The position numbers were made by a program, and so were the translations under genes. Shown piece by piece: positions 30,052-40,087 of a DNA stretch of 49,285 nucleotides (position 1 is the stretch's first letter; the number at the start of each line of letters is the position of its first letter). The notes under the pieces are model-generated. The model saw nothing but the letters and a program-made list of their open reading frames with translations. It did no database searches and had not been told where the DNA came from. The stretch comes from Verrucomicrobiota bacterium. Its GTDB lineage: Bacteria > Verrucomicrobiota > Kiritimatiellia > SS1-B-03-39 > UBA6053. The stretch lies in contig JAFIGD010000037.1 in assembly GCA_020831625.1 (NCBI GenBank), positions 1 through 49,285 of the forward strand, written 5' to 3'.

Positions 30052-31199
30052 ACCGTTTTGGGCGCGGGCGGGAAAAGATCGAAGGCCAACAGGCGGCATT
30101 CGAGGGCTCCGTTATACAGGGTGTGTTTTCCGGAGAGTTTGAGGCCGAAGCGCTTGGAGAGCGGGATGTTTCCGGTAATGATCAGCCCTTTTCCGCCGGT
30201 GTTCAGTCCTTTGAACCAGCGTCCGATATCCTGATAATGCGCCTCGAGGTTTTCCTCCTCCCCCATGCGCACGCCGTATTCGGGATTAAGGACCACCCAG
30301 GCGGGACCTTCGGGCATGACGGTTTCCCGGTAATCGGCGGTTTCGAAGCGGATCAGGTCCGCCACCCCGGCGCGTTCGGCATTGGCCTGGGCCAGACGGA
30401 TGGTCTGGGGGTCGTGATCGGTGGCCAGAATCGGCGGTACTTCGGCGGCCGGGCGGACGGCGGTGCGGGCGGCGAAGATTTCTTTTTGCCAGGCGCGGGC
30501 ATCGGTTTCCAGGAGATGCAGAAAGCCGAAATTGTCCCGGAGGAGGCCGGGCGCCTGGCGGCGGGCGATGAGAGCGGCTTCGATGGCGAGGGTGCCACTG
30601 CCGCACATGGGATTGACGAGCGGGGTGTCGCCCTGATAGCCGCCGGCCAGCAGAATCGCGGCGGCCAGTGCCTCCTGCATGGGGGCGATGCCGCCCTGTT
30701 GACGGTATCCGCGGCGGGAGAGGGGCTGCCCGGCCAGATCGAAGTAGAGGTTGGCCTGGTCGTCGATCCAGTGCAGGTAGAGATTCGCGCCGCGGTCGTC
30801 GGGTCCGCTGTCGGGCCGGCGGCCGCAGCGGTCGCGCATGCGGTCCATGACCGCGTCTTTGACGGTCAGAAAGGCGAAGCGCTCATCCCGGATGGCCTCG
30901 GTGCGCACAAAGCCGTGAACCCGGAGGTATCCGCCGGGATCGAGGTGTTTCTCCCAGGGGAAACGGATGACCGCGCCGAACAGGCCGTTGGGGCCGGTGA
31001 CCCGCGCCCGGGTCAGTGGCCAGAGCACCCGGTGGGCGGTGCGCAAATGGAGGCAGAGGCGGGTGGCTTCGGCGTAGGTGGCCTCGACCTCCACGGCGGC
31101 GGTATCCTCCCGGAGGACGTTCAGTCCGAGGGCTTCAATTTCGCGGGCCAGAATCGGCGGGATGCCTTTGGCGCAGGTGATCAGGGCGGTTTGTTTCAT
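30048..31199 (-). CDS. THUMP-domain RNA methyltransferase (RlmL/YpsC-type)
   Basis: The protein has 383 residues. An N-terminal ferredoxin-like/THUMP region (about 1-165) is followed by a Rossmann methyltransferase with NPMCGSGTLAIEAALIA (SAM-binding motif preceded by the family NPMCGSGT) and the catalytic-type NPEYGVRMG (usual form NPPYGER). RlmL relatives methylate 23S rRNA guanine (m2G2445). The gene overlaps by ATGA the kinase upstream and VanZ downstream. The Pro-to-Glu change within NPPY is worth noting because that segment positions the target base. Confidence 0.85.
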   Translation of the reverse strand: MKQTALITCAKGIPPILAREIEALGLNVLREDTAAVEVEATYAEATRLCLHLRTAHRVLWPLTRARVTGPNGLFGAVIRFPWEKHLDPGGYLRVHGFVRTEAIRDERFAFLTVKDAVMDRMRDRCGRRPDSGPDDRGANLYLHWIDDQANLYFDLAGQPLSRRGYRQQGGIAPMQEALAAAILLAGGYQGDTPLVNPMCGSGTLAIEAALIARRQAPGLLRDNFGFLHLLETDARAWQKEIFAARTAVRPAAEVPPILATDHDPQTIRLAQANAERAGVADLIRFETADYRETVMPEGPAWVVLNPEYGVRMGEEENLEAHYQDIGRWFKGLNTGGKGLIITGNIPLSKRFGLKLSGKHTLYNGALECRLLAFDLFPPAPKTV

Positions 31200-32107
31200 G
31201 CGGGGGTCGGGGAAGGAATTCGAATTTCAATGCGGGTGCCGTTGTGTTCATCGGCGGGGGAGTCGATCCACATGCGGCCCTTGAATATTTTGGTGACATA
31301 GTAGGCTTTGGTGAGTCCGAAGCCGCCTCCGCAGGTGGGGCGGTCTTTGACATTGCTGGCACGGTAGCCGAAGCGTACGACCTGCTCGATCTCATCAGAT
31401 GGAATGCCGCAGCCGGTGTCGCTGACAACAAAACGAAGGCCGTTCTGATAGAGTGAGAGTCCGGCCGCGATGGTGCCGCCCGGGGCCGTGTATTTGCGCG
31501 CGTTGGCAATGAGGTCGCGCATAACATCCTGAAAAACGGGGGGCATTAAAATCTGTCCGGAATTGTTGCCATTAATGTCGAGGTGAATCAGGTAGTTGCC
31601 ATCTTCGTGCTGGGCGAGATTGTGAACGATGCGGTAGGCGCCATGGCTGTTGCGTTCGATGGCCTGAAAGAGGGTGGAAAAATTATCCTTGAGTTCTTTG
31701 ACGGGATGGGGGACCCAGGCTTCGGGATTTTCCTGCCGCTCGCGCAGTTCGCGGGCGCGGACCTGGAGGATAAGAAAAATTCCTTCAAGATTGGCGCGGA
31801 CGGATGCAAGGGTTCCGTCTGTATGCAGCCGCGGATATTTTTCGTTTAGATCGCGCAGATGTTGATTGCAGTCGAGAATAAAGGTTTCGATGTTGGAGAT
31901 AAGATGCGAGGCGGCCTGGGAATTGCCCAGGTGTTGTCCGGCGTTGGCAATGAAATCGAGGAGGGTGTCCAGATCATCCGCATCCCCGATTTGTTCATCC
32001 AGACGCAGAAATTCGTGCTGAATGACGGTGAGCACATTGAGGACGCTGTGCATATCGAGGAGTGAGACCTCGTCCGGGGTGAAAGGGGTGTCGAGTGCAA
32101 TTTCCAT
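31196..32107 (-). CDS. Sensor histidine kinase without membrane helices
   Basis: This 303-residue soluble protein has an N-terminal helical region containing a candidate phospho-acceptor (LLDMHSVLNVLTVIQHEF). After a helical linker comes a HATPase domain with the N box (RDLIANARKYTA), G1 (SDTGCGIPSDE) and G2 (GGGFGLTKAYYV). It lacks a receiver domain and any clear input domain. It lies 27 nt downstream of the hybrid kinase gene and overlaps the methyltransferase gene, so it is co-transcribed with both. It may feed or tune the same phosphorelay (inference). Confidence 0.85.
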   Translation of the reverse strand: MEIALDTPFTPDEVSLLDMHSVLNVLTVIQHEFLRLDEQIGDADDLDTLLDFIANAGQHLGNSQAASHLISNIETFILDCNQHLRDLNEKYPRLHTDGTLASVRANLEGIFLILQVRARELRERQENPEAWVPHPVKELKDNFSTLFQAIERNSHGAYRIVHNLAQHEDGNYLIHLDINGNNSGQILMPPVFQDVMRDLIANARKYTAPGGTIAAGLSLYQNGLRFVVSDTGCGIPSDEIEQVVRFGYRASNVKDRPTCGGGFGLTKAYYVTKIFKGRMWIDSPADEHNGTRIEIRIPSPTPA

Positions 32108-32134: not shown

Positions 32135-35100
32135 TCAAGCATCGGGCTTGAGGTGATTCATCAACATGGCTTTTAAATCTGCAAGCTTCAAGGGTTTACT
32201 CAGATAATCGTCCATTCCGGCCTGGATACATTTTTCACGGTCCCCTTTGATGGCATCTGCGGTGAGGGCGATGATTTTGAGGCGGGTACCGGCAGGCGGG
32301 CCGACCTCGTGTTCGCGATAGGCCCGGGTGGCTTCGAGGCCGTCCATTTCGGGCATGTGGAGATCCATGAGCACGGCGTCGAAGGGCTTGGCGATCATTT
32401 TCTCCAAGGCTTCCTTGCCGTTGTTGGCCAACTCGTGGGTGAGCCCGAGGCGGGTCAGGTATTGAGACGCGACCTTTTGGTTGACGAGGTTGTCTTCGAC
32501 AATGAGGAGGTGTGCTTTCGGTAAAGCGGTTTCGTCTGTGTTTTGGGGGGAAGGTGTTTGCGGGGAAGGGGCGGGGAGGCTCCCTTTTGGAGAGGGAGGG
32601 GGGCAGGTGCCCATTTTGGGGAGCAGTTGAATGAGGAGGTCGTGAAGTTGGGATTCGCGCAAAGGTTTTTCCAGGACGGCGTCGTATCCGGCTTTGCGGA
32701 AGAGTTCATCGCGCTCGCGGACATTGATGGAGGAGAGCATGATGAGTTTGAGGCCACAGTCTTTCGGGAGTTGAGCCCGGATATTTTCGGCCAGTTCGAT
32801 GCCGTCCATTTCCGGCATCATCATGTCGATGACCGCGCATTCATAGGGGTCTGCGGCTTTGATGGCTTTGTTGAGCAGGGAAACGACCTTGAGGGGATTC
32901 TCTTCGCCGTCAGACCGGCACTCCCACCGCGCGAAAATGCGGGCCATGAGGCGGAGGTTGGTGGGGTTGTCGTCGACCACCAGAATCCGGCGGCCCTGAA
33001 GAATGGTTTCGGGGGTGTCGGTGCCGGTTTGATGATGGCCATACTGTTTTGGGAGGGGGAGGGTGACGATGAAGCGGCTTCCCCGGCCCGGAGTGCTTTC
33101 GACATCGATTTTACCTTTCATGAGGTCGGCGAGCCGCTTGACGATGGCGAGGCCGAGGCCGGAGCCCTCATGGCGGCGGACAAAGGAGCCGTCGAGCTGA
33201 GTGAATTCCTCAAAGAGGCTTTGAATGCGGTCGTTGGGGATCCCGGGGCCGGTGTCGGATACGATGAAACGGATTATCGCGGAGTTCTCATCCTCTCCTT
33301 CGCATTCCACGCGGGTGGAAACGTGACCGTTGTCGGTGAATTTGATGGCGTTTCCGATAAGGTTGATGAGAATCTGGCGGATGCGGAGTGAATCACCTTT
33401 CACTTGCAGGGGGACCTCGGGAAGAATTTCAGCCCGGTAGTCGATGCCTTTCTCACGGGCTTTGACGGACAGAAGTTTATGAATGCTTTCGAGCAGCAGA
33501 CGAAGATCGAGATGCTCCCGGGTTATGACGATTTGCCCGGCTTCTATTTTTGAGAAATCGAGGATGTCGTTGATGATGTGCAGTAGCAGGTCGCCGCTTT
33601 CGACAATGATATCGATTTTTTCTTTTTGATCCGGGGGAAGAGGGTCATCCTGGAGGAGGCGGGCCATGCCGAGAATGCCGTTCATGGGGGTCCGGATTTC
33701 ATGACTCATGCGGGCGAGAAATTCGCTTTTGGCTATATTGGCTTTTTCGGAGTCGATGGCCAGACTGCGGGCGCGGTCGAGGGCCTTGTTGAGTTCCGCG
33801 TTGGTGTGCGTTAATTGAGTTTCGGCCTCACTGCGGAGGATGGCGGCCCCGATAGACGAGGCGATGGAAAGGAGAACGGCCCGTTCACTGGGTGACCAGA
33901 CGAAATCATGGCGGCAGTTGTCGAACCCGATAAAGCCCCAAAAGTCCGCCCCCTTAAAGATCGGGACCACAAGCAGGGAAATTATATCCTGGGGGTCCAA
34001 AACTTCCCGTTCGACTTCGGGGAAGGTGCTGACCGGACCCTCAATGTGTTGTCCGGCCATGAGGAGTTGACTCCATCGGGGCAAACTTTTGAAGAAAGGG
34101 GTGTTTTGAAGATCCGGATTTTCGATCTGGGGCGCGATTCCCGGCGCGACCCATTCGTGGGTTTGGGAGATCACACTGGTTTCGAGCGGTTCCCTTGCAT
34201 GAAATTCGAACACATAAAGCCGGTCCTGGTCGCAGGCGGGGCCGAGAATAAGAAGGGCCTGGTTTATGGCCTGTCGGGTGTCCGGGGTTTTGACCAGTTG
34301 TTCATTGGCGGCGGCGGCGGCTTCGAGGAGGCGGTCACGGCGTTTCAGGGAAAATTCGGCCAGGCTGCGCTCCTCTTCGACGCGAATGGCGGATGCCACG
34401 GCTGAGATGAATTCAAGATCATCCTCCGAGGGACTGATGTGCTTGCGGTAAAGGAGCGCGAGTGAGCCGAGGTCCTGTTGGTTAAGGGGCACGGATTTTC
34501 CGATACAGGTGACGAGACCGAACTGTCTCACGTTGGGGTCGGTCTCGGCAAACATGGTGTTTTGCAGGTCGCAGACAACCAGCGGGGTGTCCGCATGGGC
34601 CTCAATACCCTGAGTGCAAATACGGCCACGGGCTGCATCGACAGCGTTAAAGGCTTCAGGGACATTCCATAGAGCTTTGGCGGTGACCTGGTTGCCGGTT
34701 AAACGGTGGTAAAGTGCGTAATCGGCTTTTAAAATATCACCGGCCAGGGCGGTGAGGCGCTGGATGTTTTCAAGCGGGTCCGCGCCGAAACTTAGAAAAC
34801 AGGCGTTAATGCGGTTCAGTCGCTCTTGACTGATTTTAAGAGTCTGTGAGCTGGATTCCACCTGCAGATGCAGGGTGTCGTGTCTGTCGAGCACCAAACT
34901 GATCAGCAGGGCGAGACAGATTGTGATGAAAGATCCCGTCAAGAGCGAAAACCCTTGAAGGGGCGCCGCAAACGATAAACCCGTTGAGGGGGGGAGAAGG
35001 GGGACGACCTCAACCGTGAAAGCCGAGCCGAAGCCCAGCCAGGGGACATGAAGAATGGGTTCGCCCCTGATTCCGTTACCGGTATACACTGTGCCCAGCG

Positions 35101-36325
35101 TTTCCACCGATCCCCAGTTATCCAGTTTGTTCAGGACCAGAGCAAAGGGACTGGAGAGCTCATCGTGAAACATATCGTCCAGTGCGCGGCTGAAGAACGG
35201 TTCCAAATTAACACGGATTTCAAGGATGCGGCCAGGCGCGGAAGACAAATCAAATCTTGAATAAAACGAAAGGAAGTTCGAATCCCGAAGGCCGCTGGCG
35301 GGTTTGGCGCCGGTCCGGGTGAGCAGCGCGTTTGAAATTTCCGGGGGAACCCCGCTGTTTGGTGATGAAGGGTCGGCCGGAACCTCATGCAAATGGAGGG
35401 TCGCCGCGCCATGATATTTTTTCAAAAAGGGGGCCGCCACGGTGTTTGCCTCTGAAAGGAACTCAGGGGAGGTGTTTGCAAGAACGGTCGTCAGAGCGGG
35501 TAAATCGTGTTCCGCAATTTCGTTGAAGAGATCAATGATCCGCATGCTTTTCAGGAGACCGGATTCACGTTGATGTTGTCTTTGCGCCTTTTGATCATGT
35601 TCATAAAGGGTATGGCTGACGACGATGGAGAGCAGGGCTCCGAAGAGTATCGTGAAAACAGCCTCGAAGCGGATGCGGGGGGGGGCGGAACGGTTGGTTT
35701 TTTTGTGCAGAATCCGCATATGACCCAGAGCGGCGATGGCCAGGAAAAACGCAGTGAGGGCCAGAGGTTTCCAGGAGGTTCGCATGAGATGCCGGTTCCA
35801 AGTGGATGCGTCGATATCGATTCCGAACAGGGCGATCGATTCGTCCCGGTATGGATGGCGGACCGGAGCAAGCCCACTGATCCAAACGCCCCATTCATCT
35901 TCAATGGGCCCCTCCACCAATGCCTGACCGCTGCTGAAACTTTTGATGAGTTCCGGACTGGCGTCATCATAGAGTTGCCCCGGTATCGCGGGCTCGATCG
36001 GGAACTCCTCTTTTTCGACATCCATGAGGAAAACGATCTTCCCTTCGGTTGTCTTGCGCATAAGGTACATGAACTCCAGGTCCTCCGCGTTGCGAAGGAG
36101 GCTTCCCATCTGTTGTTTTAACCGCCGGAAGTCCGCCCGATCCAGATCTTCGGGGGATGCGGTCCACTCAAGAATCGACCGGGCGGGGATCGACTGGGCA
36201 ATTATGACTGTCCTTTCAAGCAGATCTCTTCGACGGGCCCGGTCTTCTGTTTGCACCGTCCATACGGTGTAAAACAGGCCGAGGATCAAAAGTATCCCGT
36301 AGGGAATCGCGCATTTTGATTTCAT
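32135..36325 (-). CDS. Hybrid sensor histidine kinase with two receivers and two GAF domains
   Basis: The protein has 1396 residues. Membrane helices lie near 6-24, 187-205, 222-240 and 460-480, enclosing two extracytoplasmic sensor regions. Two GAF-type domains follow (about 520-650 and 680-830). The HisKA motif is [20 protein letters not shown], and the HATPase domain has [22 protein letters not shown] and [12 protein letters not shown]. Receiver 1 starts [14 protein letters not shown] (acceptor in [11 protein letters not shown]) and receiver 2 starts [13 protein letters not shown] (acceptor in [12 protein letters not shown]). There is no HPt domain; one is present in the divergent gene at 38030, which would complete a four-step relay. 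The start overlaps the glycosyltransferase-STAS stop (ATGA). Confidence 0.93.
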
Positions 36326-37800
36326 ATTTTTTTCGGCAAGGTCCCAGTTTGGGGAAGGAGCAGTTTGTCGACACGGGCGAGTTTGACGGTGGTAAGCGGA
36401 GCGCCTTGAAGATTCAGGATTTCAAAACGCTGGTTTTTCTCTTTGGCCCGTTTCTTGAGGAGCATGAAAAATCCCAGTCCGGCAGAGTCGAGAAAGCGCA
36501 GGTCCCCGGCTTCGACGAAAATACTTTTTGTCTCGGAGGGCAAATCCTCAATCACGGGCAGAATCGCCTGCCGCCATTCGTCCAATGTTAAGGCGCTGAG
36601 TTCTTCGGGGGGGAAAAGGGTGCAGGATTTTTTTTCGTTATCCTGCAGTATTTTTTTGCGGACTTTCGGAGACCCGAAGGTGGCGGGCACGGCTTTGGGT
36701 TGGTTGCCGCTGCCAACGGTCACTTGCGAGACGGGGCGTTCCGAAAGGCGGGTGTTCCAGTCGGTGGCGGGGTCAACCGGTTCGATCAACGGGTCCATTA
36801 GATTGATGCGAAGCCAGGTGTCGAGGCGGTCGCAGGTTCCGGTGCGGAGGAGAAACACGCGTCGAAATTTCGCGTTTCGTCCCAGAATCAGGAGCGTTCC
36901 CAGCTCAAGCGACGTAAGCCAGGTTGTGCCGGTGAAGTCGAGTACGGCATGTTGATGTTGAATGGCTTTTTCAGTATCGCATATGTAGTCCTGAGCCGCT
37001 TCAGGTGTTTGAAGGGGAATCCAGGGGATACGGACAAACCGTGCGTCTGGATTGCCTTCGGCATCCGAGGGGAGTTCCGCGGGGCGCGGGGTGCATTCAA
37101 GGCGCCTGACGGCTTTGATTTTTTTCAGGGCATCGAGAATGAATCTGAAACTTTCGGCGCAGCGCTTTCGTTTGGGCACGCGTTTTCGGATTCCTGCAAG
37201 GACCTCGAAGCTGTCGCCGAGTCCGACCGCAAGCGGTATCTCCCATTCGCGAAAGTGAAGGTTAATCCATTTTTCCTGTTTGGGAGAGCCGAGGGCCACG
37301 TATAGAATATCGGGTTTGCTTTGCTCCAATTGGTGCAGGATTGGAATGTGATCCATCTCCAGGAGGTCGGTTTCGGGCGGTGAACAGCATCCTGCGAGGA
37401 TGTAGCCGGGAAATTTTTGCTTCAGGACTTCTCCGGCTTTTTCGGATATCCCGGGGGGAACTCCGAGATGAAAGACGCTGAAGCCTTCTTGGGCCGCGGC
37501 TTCGGAAAGGGACAGGATAAGATCGCTGCCGGTAACGGGGGCGGGGAGTTTGGGCCCCAGGCGTCCGGACAGCCAGATGATGGGCCAGCCGTCAGGGATC
37601 AAGAGGGCGGCCTGGGCGAGAATGCGGCTGAGTTCGGGGTCTTGACCGGCCCGCATGACGAAGTCGAGGTCGGGCGTGGCCATGTACCCGGATGTGCGTT
37701 TTTTGACATGCTCCACACACCGGTCGATTGTTTGCTGACGGGTATAGGGATGAAAGGGAACTCCGAGAATGACGAGGGGGATTGGTGTGTCTGTGTCCAT
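36322..37800 (-). CDS. WecB/TagA/CpsF glycosyltransferase fused to two STAS-type domains
   Basis: The protein has 492 residues. Residues about 6-225 are a complete GT26 domain: [30 protein letters not shown] (Asp70-Gly71), VTGSDLI and GSPKQEKWI (171-179). GT26 enzymes add N-acetyl-mannosamine(-uronate) or glucose to lipid-linked intermediates of surface polymers. Residues about 255-345 look like a STAS fold ([20 protein letters not shown], Ser297). Residues about 385-490 are a clearer STAS domain ([19 protein letters not shown], Ser439 in the DSAGLG motif phosphorylated in SpoIIAA/RsbV). The start at 37800 has AAGGAG 9-10 nt upstream. The gene leads the operon with the hybrid kinase. I know of no described protein with this domain combination. 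Confidence 0.85.
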
Positions 37801-37990
37801 GATGCTTGTCTCCTTTAAGCGGCAAACCGTTCGTACCGAAGGGCGGGTTTCAGGTCGGCCTTTGTGAAAAATCACGCTTATGAAATTGAACTCCTCATTC
37901 ACCCGGATGTCGAGAGCAATTGGCTGAAATGAAGGGGTTTTTGAGGTCTTGTCCTGTTTCCGCGGGTTTCCAATTCTTCAGCGATTCATA

Positions 37991-38020
37991 TTGTATTTGT
38001 CCCCACGCTGTCATTATACT
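37991..38020 (+). promoter_or_regulatory. Candidate promoter giving a near-leaderless transcript
   Basis: TTGTAT (37991-37996), an 18-bp spacer and TATACT (38015-38020) lie so that transcription would start within a few bases of the ATG at 38030. No Shine-Dalgarno is present upstream of that ATG, which agrees with leaderless translation. Confidence 0.4.
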
Positions 38021-38029
38021 GAATCTATA

Positions 38030-40087
38030 ATGAGTTTTGACCTGAACGAAAAGAGTTCTGATCCGCCGCGCTTTCCGTCCCGCGATCTGGCGCGCAAGTG
38101 GTTCGGGGGGCAAATCCCCGATCTGGACATGAGGGCGGAGGGGTTCATTACCGACCTGAATGTGGTGGATGATGAGTTGTTGGCTCTGTTTGTTGAAGAG
38201 ATTAACCGGGCGGTTCAGGGGCTCATTCAGGCGGTTTCGGATGAAAATGAAACGGGGATCCGGGAGCAGGCGCATACGCTGCAGGGTATGGGGGGAACGG
38301 TCGGCGCACCTGAAATTTCGGTGCTGGGGGAAGAGCTGAGCCTCAGGGCTCAAAAAGGCGATTATTCCGGGTGTCGGCATCTGGTGGCCTCTTTTCAAGG
38401 CTGGCAGGCTGAATGGACCTCCCCGGAAACGGGACAAGAGGGGGTCATTGAAAGCATGCCGAAACTGTCGGGGCTGATTCTGGTGGTGGATGACGAGCGG
38501 GCAAACCGCCGATTCCTCGAAAAACTGCTCCGGGACTGCGGGGGGGAGGTCTATTTGGCCGAGAATGGCGAAGAGGCGCTTGAGATGATTCGACGGTATC
38601 GGCCGGATGTGGCCCTGGTCGATGTGATGATGAACGGAATTGACGGGTATGAAGTTTGTGAGCGGGTCAGCCAGAATCCTGAACTGAATCAAACGTTGGT
38701 GATTATGGTCACGGCCAAATCAACGGTGAAGGACATCGAGCATGCGTTCCTGAAGGGGGCGTTTGACTATATCCGCAAGCCGTTTCACAGCCGGGAATTG
38801 GTGGCGCGGGTCCGGAATGCGCTGATGCTGAAGCGGAACACCGACGCGCTGGAGTCGTGGAAAGCCCGCATGTCCCGAGAAATGGAGATGGCGGGGGCGG
38901 TGCAATCCAAGTTGTTTAATGCGCAGCCGTTCATCGGGAAACGGTTTGATGTGTTTATGTCCTATCGGCCGAGTCAGCATGTGGGGGGAGACATGTTTGA
39001 TTTGCATGCCCTGCCGGACGGGCGTTTGCTGGGGTATGTTGCGGATGTGGCCGGGCACGGGGTGGCATCCTCGCTGATCTCCACCCTGATCAAGGGGCTG
39101 ATCACTGAAATTATTTTCGCGCTGCATGAACCCTCTTTGTTTGAAATTGGAAACGAACTGCACCGGCGTTTCCGGAACTGTGTTTTTGAGCCGGAGATTT
39201 ATGCGACCATGCTGTTGTTCAGAGCCAACCCCGATTCCAGGCGCATTGAGACCCTCTCCTGCGGTCATCCAGCCCCGTTGATTGTGCGCACTTCCGGGGA
39301 GGAGGTTCCGGCGTTGATTTCAGAACACGGCGGCATGCCGATCGGGATGATGCCGGAGGAAATGGGGACACCTTACAGCGCGGAGGACGAACTGGGTTTC
39401 ACGCTGCCGAATGACGCCTGTGTGTATGTGTTTACAGACGGTTTGGTCGAAGCGCGGAATTCTCGGCGGGAGGAATGCGGCGTGGAGGGGCTGCGGTCGG
39501 CGTTGAAACAGGTTCTCGAACGAGACCCGGTGTTTCCGGATACCGGCGCGGTCATTGAGGCGCTGGAGAACGCGGGATTCGATACACAGAAGGATGACTG
39601 CACCTTGATGTGTCTTTCTCTGCCGCCCGCTTCTGATCTTTATGCAGGCGGAGTGATCGGGGGCAGCCTGGCGGACGTCAATCAGCTTTCCCGCGAACTG
39701 GCGGCCTGTCTTGAAGAGCACGGATGGGACAGTGACACGACGCAATTGATCCGTCTATTGGTGATGGAGCACGGCACCAATGTGATCAAGCACGGTTCTA
39801 TGCGGGAGGGCGAAACAATTTTCTATCGGTTAACCCGTCATTCCCAGGGGGCGGTTTTAGCGTTTTCGGACGGAGGGTGCGCCTGGGCGGGACCTGATCA
39901 GAGACGGCGTTCCGACTCCGGAGAGGAGGGGGATGTCGAGGCGACCCTTTATGCGGAGAACGGCCGGGGGCTTGAGCTGCTTCGGCAACTGAGCCGGGAG
40001 TCGTTATCCTTCCGTCGGGACAACCGGAACCATGCCCTCTACCTTTTAGAGAGGAATTTAAGCCGACGGTTAAATCAAATCACGTGA
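38030..40087 (+). CDS. HPt-receiver-PP2C phosphatase-HATPase regulator (RsbU/RsbW-like fusion)
   Basis: The protein has 685 residues. An HPt-type helix bundle (about 45-125) carries His82 in AHTLQGMGGTVGA. The receiver (about 148-265) has Asp154/155 and acceptor Asp198. A coiled linker follows, then a SpoIIE/RsbU PP2C phosphatase (about 305-540; SQHVGGDMFDL, VADVAGHGVASSL, VFTDGLVEARN). The end (about 560-680) is an HATPase of the RsbW/SpoIIAB anti-sigma type (VMEHGTNVIKHGS, then FSDGGCAWAG and NGRGLELLRQL). PP2C domains dephosphorylate STAS proteins and RsbW-type domains phosphorylate or sequester them. The gene is divergent from the glycosyltransferase-STAS gene and overlaps the next gene's 3' end by 8 nt. 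Confidence 0.9.
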   Translation: MSFDLNEKSSDPPRFPSRDLARKWFGGQIPDLDMRAEGFITDLNVVDDELLALFVEEINRAVQGLIQAVSDENETGIREQAHTLQGMGGTVGAPEISVLGEELSLRAQKGDYSGCRHLVASFQGWQAEWTSPETGQEGVIESMPKLSGLILVVDDERANRRFLEKLLRDCGGEVYLAENGEEALEMIRRYRPDVALVDVMMNGIDGYEVCERVSQNPELNQTLVIMVTAKSTVKDIEHAFLKGAFDYIRKPFHSRELVARVRNALMLKRNTDALESWKARMSREMEMAGAVQSKLFNAQPFIGKRFDVFMSYRPSQHVGGDMFDLHALPDGRLLGYVADVAGHGVASSLISTLIKGLITEIIFALHEPSLFEIGNELHRRFRNCVFEPEIYATMLLFRANPDSRRIETLSCGHPAPLIVRTSGEEVPALISEHGGMPIGMMPEEMGTPYSAEDELGFTLPNDACVYVFTDGLVEARNSRREECGVEGLRSALKQVLERDPVFPDTGAVIEALENAGFDTQKDDCTLMCLSLPPASDLYAGGVIGGSLADVNQLSRELAACLEEHGWDSDTTQLIRLLVMEHGTNVIKHGSMREGETIFYRLTRHSQGAVLAFSDGGCAWAGPDQRRRSDSGEEGDVEATLYAENGRGLELLRQLSRESLSFRRDNRNHALYLLERNLSRRLNQIT

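Follow-up and report, generated by a model that had tools for sequence, protein, structure and literature searches.

Can a surface-polymer glycosyltransferase be wired directly into a partner switch, and does it have to remain an enzyme to stay in the circuit? The question is raised by one gene in the window, by which we mean the whole stretch of 49,285 nucleotides that was analyzed (contig JAFIGD010000037.1 of a Verrucomicrobiota bacterium). The initial annotation had described its product as a full GT26 (WecB/TagA/CpsF) domain followed by two STAS domains, an unrecognized combination in which the enzyme itself might be switched by phosphorylation.

A GT26 domain fused to two STAS domains

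The fusion of a GT26 domain to two STAS domains is real. The gene is a single intact open reading frame on the minus strand (36322 to 37800, with the ATG at 37800 and the stop at 36322) that has no frameshift, starts at an ATG aligning with the start codons of its relatives, and encodes a protein of 492 amino acids (P0001), all of whose features given below lie on that strand. Residues 8 to 205 (37186 to 37779) have a TagA-like GT26 fold, matching the TagA structures 5wfg and 7mpk with a Z score of 28 at 32% identity, and Pfam places Glyco_tran_WecG at residues 64 to 210 (E value, 7e-35); NCBIfam agreed with Pfam, with only the WecB/TagA/CpsF superfamily above the cutoffs. The C-terminal STAS domain (residues 390 to 486; 36343 to 36633) is likewise identified by both profile and fold, with STAS_2 at residues 399 to 478 (E value, 2e-10) and superpositions on TM1081 (Z, 13.4), TM1442 (13.3), SpoIIAA (13.0), and RsbV (12.8), and it carries a DSxG motif in the form DSAGLG.

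The middle STAS domain (residues 253 to 350; 36751 to 37044) has no Pfam match in the window copy, and its identification comes from orthologues and structure. The aligned domain of the orthologues L022 and L060 matches PF01740 at 6e-15. An AlphaFold model of the whole protein, built on a 36-sequence alignment, had a pLDDT of 87.1 and a pTM of 0.86 with a sole low-confidence linker at residues 356 to 381; the fold search with the whole model could not probe the middle domain, and residues 243 to 358 were folded alone (pLDDT, 92.8). The best structure matches of this piece are all STAS domains, namely, those of SLC26A11 (Z, 11.1), TM1081 (10.8), the stressosome protein 2vy9 (10.5), TM1442 (10.5), and RsbV (10.1); Foldseek gave weaker matches, the best with an E value of 2e-3. 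Structure prediction thus bears out the STAS folds that had been proposed at residues 255 to 345 and 385 to 490, and the two motifs noted there are also present, TSLELG with Ser297 (36910 to 36912) and DSAGLG with Ser439 (36484 to 36486). In the models, Ser297 caps the second helix of the middle domain and Ser439 caps a helix of the C-terminal domain; the phosphoserine of SpoIIAA and RsbV is a helix cap as well. Ser439 is found in 38 of 39 sequences of the first alignment. The first motif, TSLELG, had been called degenerate, yet Ser297 itself is retained in 62 of 63 family members. Separate genes merged by a frameshift, the artifact that had been raised as a possibility, are ruled out by the same architecture in 63 distinct sequences from dozens of independent genomes.

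Distribution of the family and its gene neighborhoods

These 63 distinct proteins, in which GT26 is followed by one or two STAS domains, came from scans of genome collections, and the combination is therefore not unique; it is still the case that we found no description of a GT26-STAS fusion in the open-access literature, which does not prove that there is none. Verrucomicrobiota and Kiritimatiellota supply most members, and Fibrobacterota (L020), Desulfonatronospira (L019), and Chloroflexota (L080) supply a few. In the tree, the GT26 domains of the fusions group as a single clade, separate from the sampled stand-alone GT26 enzymes, with support of 94/80 that narrowly misses the starred level; this is consistent with a single fusion event, and the family probably has a single origin.

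Many members are encoded in Wzx/Wzy exopolysaccharide clusters, several together with a hybrid histidine kinase, a free STAS protein, and an SypE/HsbR-like protein that combines receiver, PP2C, and switch-kinase domains. At 71% identity, L016 (also L142) is the closest relative of the window protein, and its cluster has the order sugar-phosphate transferase, Hpt-REC-PP2C-HATPase protein, GT2, Wzy, Wzx, a 258-amino-acid protein, the fusion, and a hybrid histidine kinase. The Wzy-Wzx part is retained at L017, L019, L020, L118, and L121, the verrucomicrobial members adjoin genes for Wzy, GT4, an XrtA-type ATPase, and export proteins, and loci of this type repeatedly include free STAS proteins and PP2C/switch-kinase proteins (L017, L080, L129, L130, and L139). 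Most relatives look like working, switch-controlled enzymes.

Loss of GT26 residues and of the appendage in the window copy

The conserved pocket of TagA consists of Thr37, Asn39, Asp65, Arg83, Gln167, and Glu168; Asp65 is the catalytic base, Asp191 contacts the ribose of UDP, and in a docking model, Arg83 and Asn39 lie next to the lipid acceptor, with Arg83 near the lipid diphosphate (PMC6493773). A C-terminal appendage is required for activity and membrane binding, and TagA truncated without it is inactive, while an Arg221Glu substitution greatly reduces activity (PMC6493773). The window copy retains the equivalents of Thr37, Asp65, Gln167, and Glu168, among them Thr42, Gln175, and the catalytic base Asp70 (37591 to 37593), and has lost those of Asn39 and Arg83. 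Residue 44 (37669 to 37671), on the lipid-acceptor side at the position of Asn39, is Asp, against Asn in the sister and almost all relatives; residue 88 (37537 to 37539), at the position of Arg83, is Pro instead of the Arg of relatives; and residue 199 (37204 to 37206), at the position of Asp191, is Glu instead of their Asp. The stretch that aligns with residues 197 to 225 is 49 amino acids long in 55 of 63 members, 29 in the window, and 26 to 27 in the seven members of a second clade described below, so that it is shortened in exactly the eight members with dismantled sites. By this comparison of segment lengths, 20 residues of the sister protein are absent from the window copy at the junction at 37160 to 37180, the appendage part that in TagA comprises H10-H11 with Arg214, Arg221, and Arg224. 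The domain is thus not the full WecB/TagA/CpsF domain that had been reported. Sequencing error is an unlikely source of the changed residues, which amount to 26 scattered substitutions and an in-frame deletion in a frame that stays open.

We infer from these losses that the GT26 domain of the window copy is inactive. It is very improbable that this copy is a working GT26 enzyme switched by STAS phosphorylation: Asp70, Thr42, and Gln175 are kept, and most relatives look intact and many sit in polysaccharide clusters, but the appendage whose removal inactivates TagA is missing, the Asn39 and Arg83 equivalents are lost, and Wzx and Wzy are gone. Residual or altered activity is possible given the three retained residues. 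The proposal of an enzyme switched by phosphorylation accordingly fits the family, as a hypothesis, but does not fit the window copy, which lacks parts that a GT26 enzyme needs.

A second clade of dismantled copies

The same losses were made independently in another lineage. In the GT26 tree, L032, L034, L037, L043, L044, L045, and L063 form a verrucomicrobial clade (100/100) nested among intact members; in these proteins, Asn44 is replaced by Gly and the base Asp70 by Glu, with the stretch around the base deleted in L045, and Arg88 is absent. Five of the seven have signaling genes as neighbors (HATPase-PP2C and receiver genes at L032 and L063, a hybrid kinase and a receiver at L034, a hybrid kinase at L037, and a receiver at L045).

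The initial annotation had offered a second option, that the glycosyltransferase senses state for a partner switch, and the GT domain may serve the switch. A further proposal is that the GT26 domain now only binds a nucleotide sugar and, as a sensor, determines the state of the two STAS domains. Such a role would fit the pattern of losses, which affect chiefly the lipid-acceptor side and the membrane appendage and spare the donor-side Thr42 and Gln175, with Asp199 replaced conservatively by Glu. The exchange of the base and of Asn44 in the second clade counts against it, and we consider a sensor of this kind unlikely.

A rule that dismantled copies lack and intact copies have polysaccharide neighbors proved only half true. 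Intact members without recognized polysaccharide neighbors exist in several groups (e.g., L117, L119, L120, L123, L131 to L138, and L140), and the contexts of L043 and L044 were uninformative; neighbor labels here come from seed proteins and selected Pfam scans, with one assembly per species. L098, which has Arg88 changed to Pro, was considered as a third loss and ruled out, as its appendage and other residues are kept, and L098/L128, with this single change, is perhaps an early stage of enzyme loss. The L098/L128 member (L128, 8717 to 13127) adjoins a free STAS gene, a HATPase-GAF-PP2C gene, and a receiver.

The STAS halves of the second clade do not form a clade (AU test, P = 3e-5, for a group named from the GT26 tree and with the STAS tree already seen), while the GT26 halves do, and in the STAS tree, the dismantled L037 pairs with the intact L029 from the same assembly. 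Recombination between STAS halves is the likely cause of this conflict between trees, and if the halves do recombine, intact and dismantled copies would answer to similar partners.

Evolutionary rates of the GT26 and STAS domains

Counted at GT26 positions where L017 and L018 agree, the window line has 26 changes versus 3 in L016 (binomial P = 1.5e-5), and in the GT26 tree, its branch measures 0.65 versus 0.033 for the sister. Between these two proteins, identity is higher in the STAS part (0.785, with both domains at 78 to 79%) than in GT26 (0.73); intact pairs with comparable STAS identity show the opposite, GT26 exceeding STAS by 0.05 to 0.19. The window branch is also longer than that of the sister in the STAS trees (0.27 versus 0.064 and 0.23 versus 0.046), per-domain trees with long branches and distant outgroups in which the rate split between window and sister is unreliable, and a general acceleration of the window lineage may contribute to the GT26 change. 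Between window and sister, dN/dS is about 0.09 and 0.08 for the STAS domains; the pairwise GT26 value, 0.156/0.89 or about 0.18, implies that this domain is not evolving freely in the window copy.

These values speak to the possibility that the gene is on its way out after loss of its cluster and that the STAS part merely lags behind. The GT26 domain is indeed accelerated and partly deleted, and the cluster genes are gone, but the frame is intact over 492 codons, dN/dS is about 0.08 to 0.09 in the STAS domains and about 0.18 in GT26, the neighboring switch protein is conserved, and the same state is found across the whole second clade. We therefore regard ongoing decay as rather unlikely.

Neighboring genes and the missing polysaccharide block

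A hybrid histidine kinase (Pfam GAF, HisKA, HATPase, and two receivers; 32135 to 36325, minus strand) overlaps the stop of the fusion gene by 4 bp with its start, in the same gene order as in the sister L016, and a HATPase_c protein is encoded next on that strand (31196 to 32107). Divergent from the fusion gene is a gene for an Hpt-REC-PP2C-HATPase_c_2 protein (38021 to 40087, plus strand), recognized by Pfam and alignment as an HsbR/SypE-like switch kinase/phosphatase. Its Hpt His, receiver Asp, PP2C Asp, and ATP-binding motifs are readable in the alignment, so that a switch kinase and a PP2C phosphatase of the SypE/HsbR type are present at the encoded level. It is 74% identical to the protein of the sister, and each of the four genomes searched has a full-length homologue. 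The link to a partner switch that had been drawn through this neighbor is strengthened by the recurrence of such genes beside other members. The ATP-binding glycine motifs are cleaner in the window (DGG and GRGL; 37949 to 40087) than in L016 (DPG and GRRL; 899 to 2974).

In the window, the switch gene directly faces the fusion gene, and the GT2-Wzy-Wzx-258-amino-acid block is absent, while a Wzx/Wzy cluster is present at L016/L142 and many relatives. The block has the same gene order at L017 and L020, so that its disappearance from the lineage of the window is the more parsimonious history. Queries for Wzx and Wzy of the sister's kind matched three fusion-holding relatives and had no match in the genome of the window, a 111-contig assembly that is 96% complete; the 258-amino-acid cluster gene was not found in that genome either, in a search lacking a positive control.

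Discussion

We think it probable that the family began as a switch-controlled polysaccharide glycosyltransferase and that the window copy is a pseudo-glycosyltransferase in which the two STAS domains still serve as a signaling target. Its members would be exopolysaccharide glycosyltransferases carrying their own partner-switch input, with the GT26 catalytic appendage running directly into a STAS pair that is often served by an SypE/HsbR-like kinase/phosphatase, and in intact members, the state of the STAS pair could gate the docking of the appendage on the membrane and the active site. The window lineage would have lost its polysaccharide genes and had its GT26 site and appendage dismantled, while the pseudo-glycosyltransferase persisted, its STAS pair a substrate for both the kinase and the phosphatase activity of the divergent Hpt-REC-PP2C-switch-kinase protein, which in turn would be fed by the hybrid kinase encoded next door. 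The phosphorylation of the STAS pair and its pairing with this kinase are inferences, the latter not proved by gene neighborhood, and the output is probably the binding or release of another protein. More tentatively, the STAS pair may gate the enzyme through its membrane appendage in a family that shed enzyme and appendage together at least twice, each time leaving a soluble signaling pseudoenzyme, possibly a nucleotide-sugar sensor.

The individual parts have known counterparts. TagA/TarA (WecB/TagA/CpsF, CAZy GT26; PDB 5wb4, 5wfg, 7mpk, and 7n41) share the fold and the position of the catalytic base but have no STAS pair, and they possess the pocket residues and the catalytic and membrane appendage that the window copy lacks. 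The anti-anti-sigma factors SpoIIAA and RsbV share the STAS fold and the phosphoserine position but are single-domain proteins that target sigma-factor regulators, and HsbA is, unlike the window protein, a free protein not fused to an enzyme. The domain order of HsbR is REC-PP2C-kinase, and the partners of HsbA are FlgM and HsbD. This Pseudomonas aeruginosa pair resembles the present arrangement in that a PP2C/switch-kinase response regulator acts on a STAS protein governing biofilm formation (PMC6482189 and PMC5085249). In the syp system of Vibrio fischeri, SypE controls SypA, a free STAS protein whose downstream target has yet to be identified (PMC10120452); there, too, a STAS protein and a receiver/PP2C/serine-kinase protein are tied to a polysaccharide locus (PMC10120452 and PMC4517449), but SypA is a free 105-amino-acid protein rather than a STAS pair fused to a glycosyltransferase, and SypE has the order kinase-REC-PP2C instead of Hpt-REC-PP2C-kinase. 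Anabaena all4160 is also a glycosyltransferase-STAS fusion in one protein, but with the STAS domain at the N terminus (cited in PMC8256260).

SypA controls the biofilm polysaccharide of Vibrio below the level of transcription (PMC10120452), and a GT26-STAS family that is often encoded beside SypE/HsbR-like regulators makes the glycosyltransferase itself a direct candidate target for SypA. On the more tentative reading above, the fusion would also point to direct action of free SypA-type STAS proteins on a glycosyltransferase. The appendage, lost twice in parallel, marks a part of the enzyme that is dispensable for the switch, and paired intact and dismantled members could serve as natural controls for separating enzyme from switch. 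Two such pairs of paralogues, L029 (7932 to 9413) with L037 (7980 to 9356) and L043 with L060, are closer in STAS (identities of 0.79 and 0.835) than in GT26 (0.645 and 0.576).

The architecture of the family also varies in size. L010, L012, L103, L109, and L115 constitute one family with GT26 and a single STAS domain, mostly of 354 to 388 amino acids, with intact GT26 residues and no recognized polysaccharide neighbors. The conserved 258-amino-acid protein encoded just before the fusion gene (L016, 6945 to 7721, and equivalents) belongs to no Pfam family and has a weak WaaP/Kdo kinase hint (E value, 0.22). At L121 (8697 to 11294), an N-terminal part resembling this protein is followed by GT26-STAS-STAS in a protein of 866 amino acids, and L122 (2521 to 5121) encodes a larger GT2-GT26-STAS-STAS fusion of 867 amino acids.
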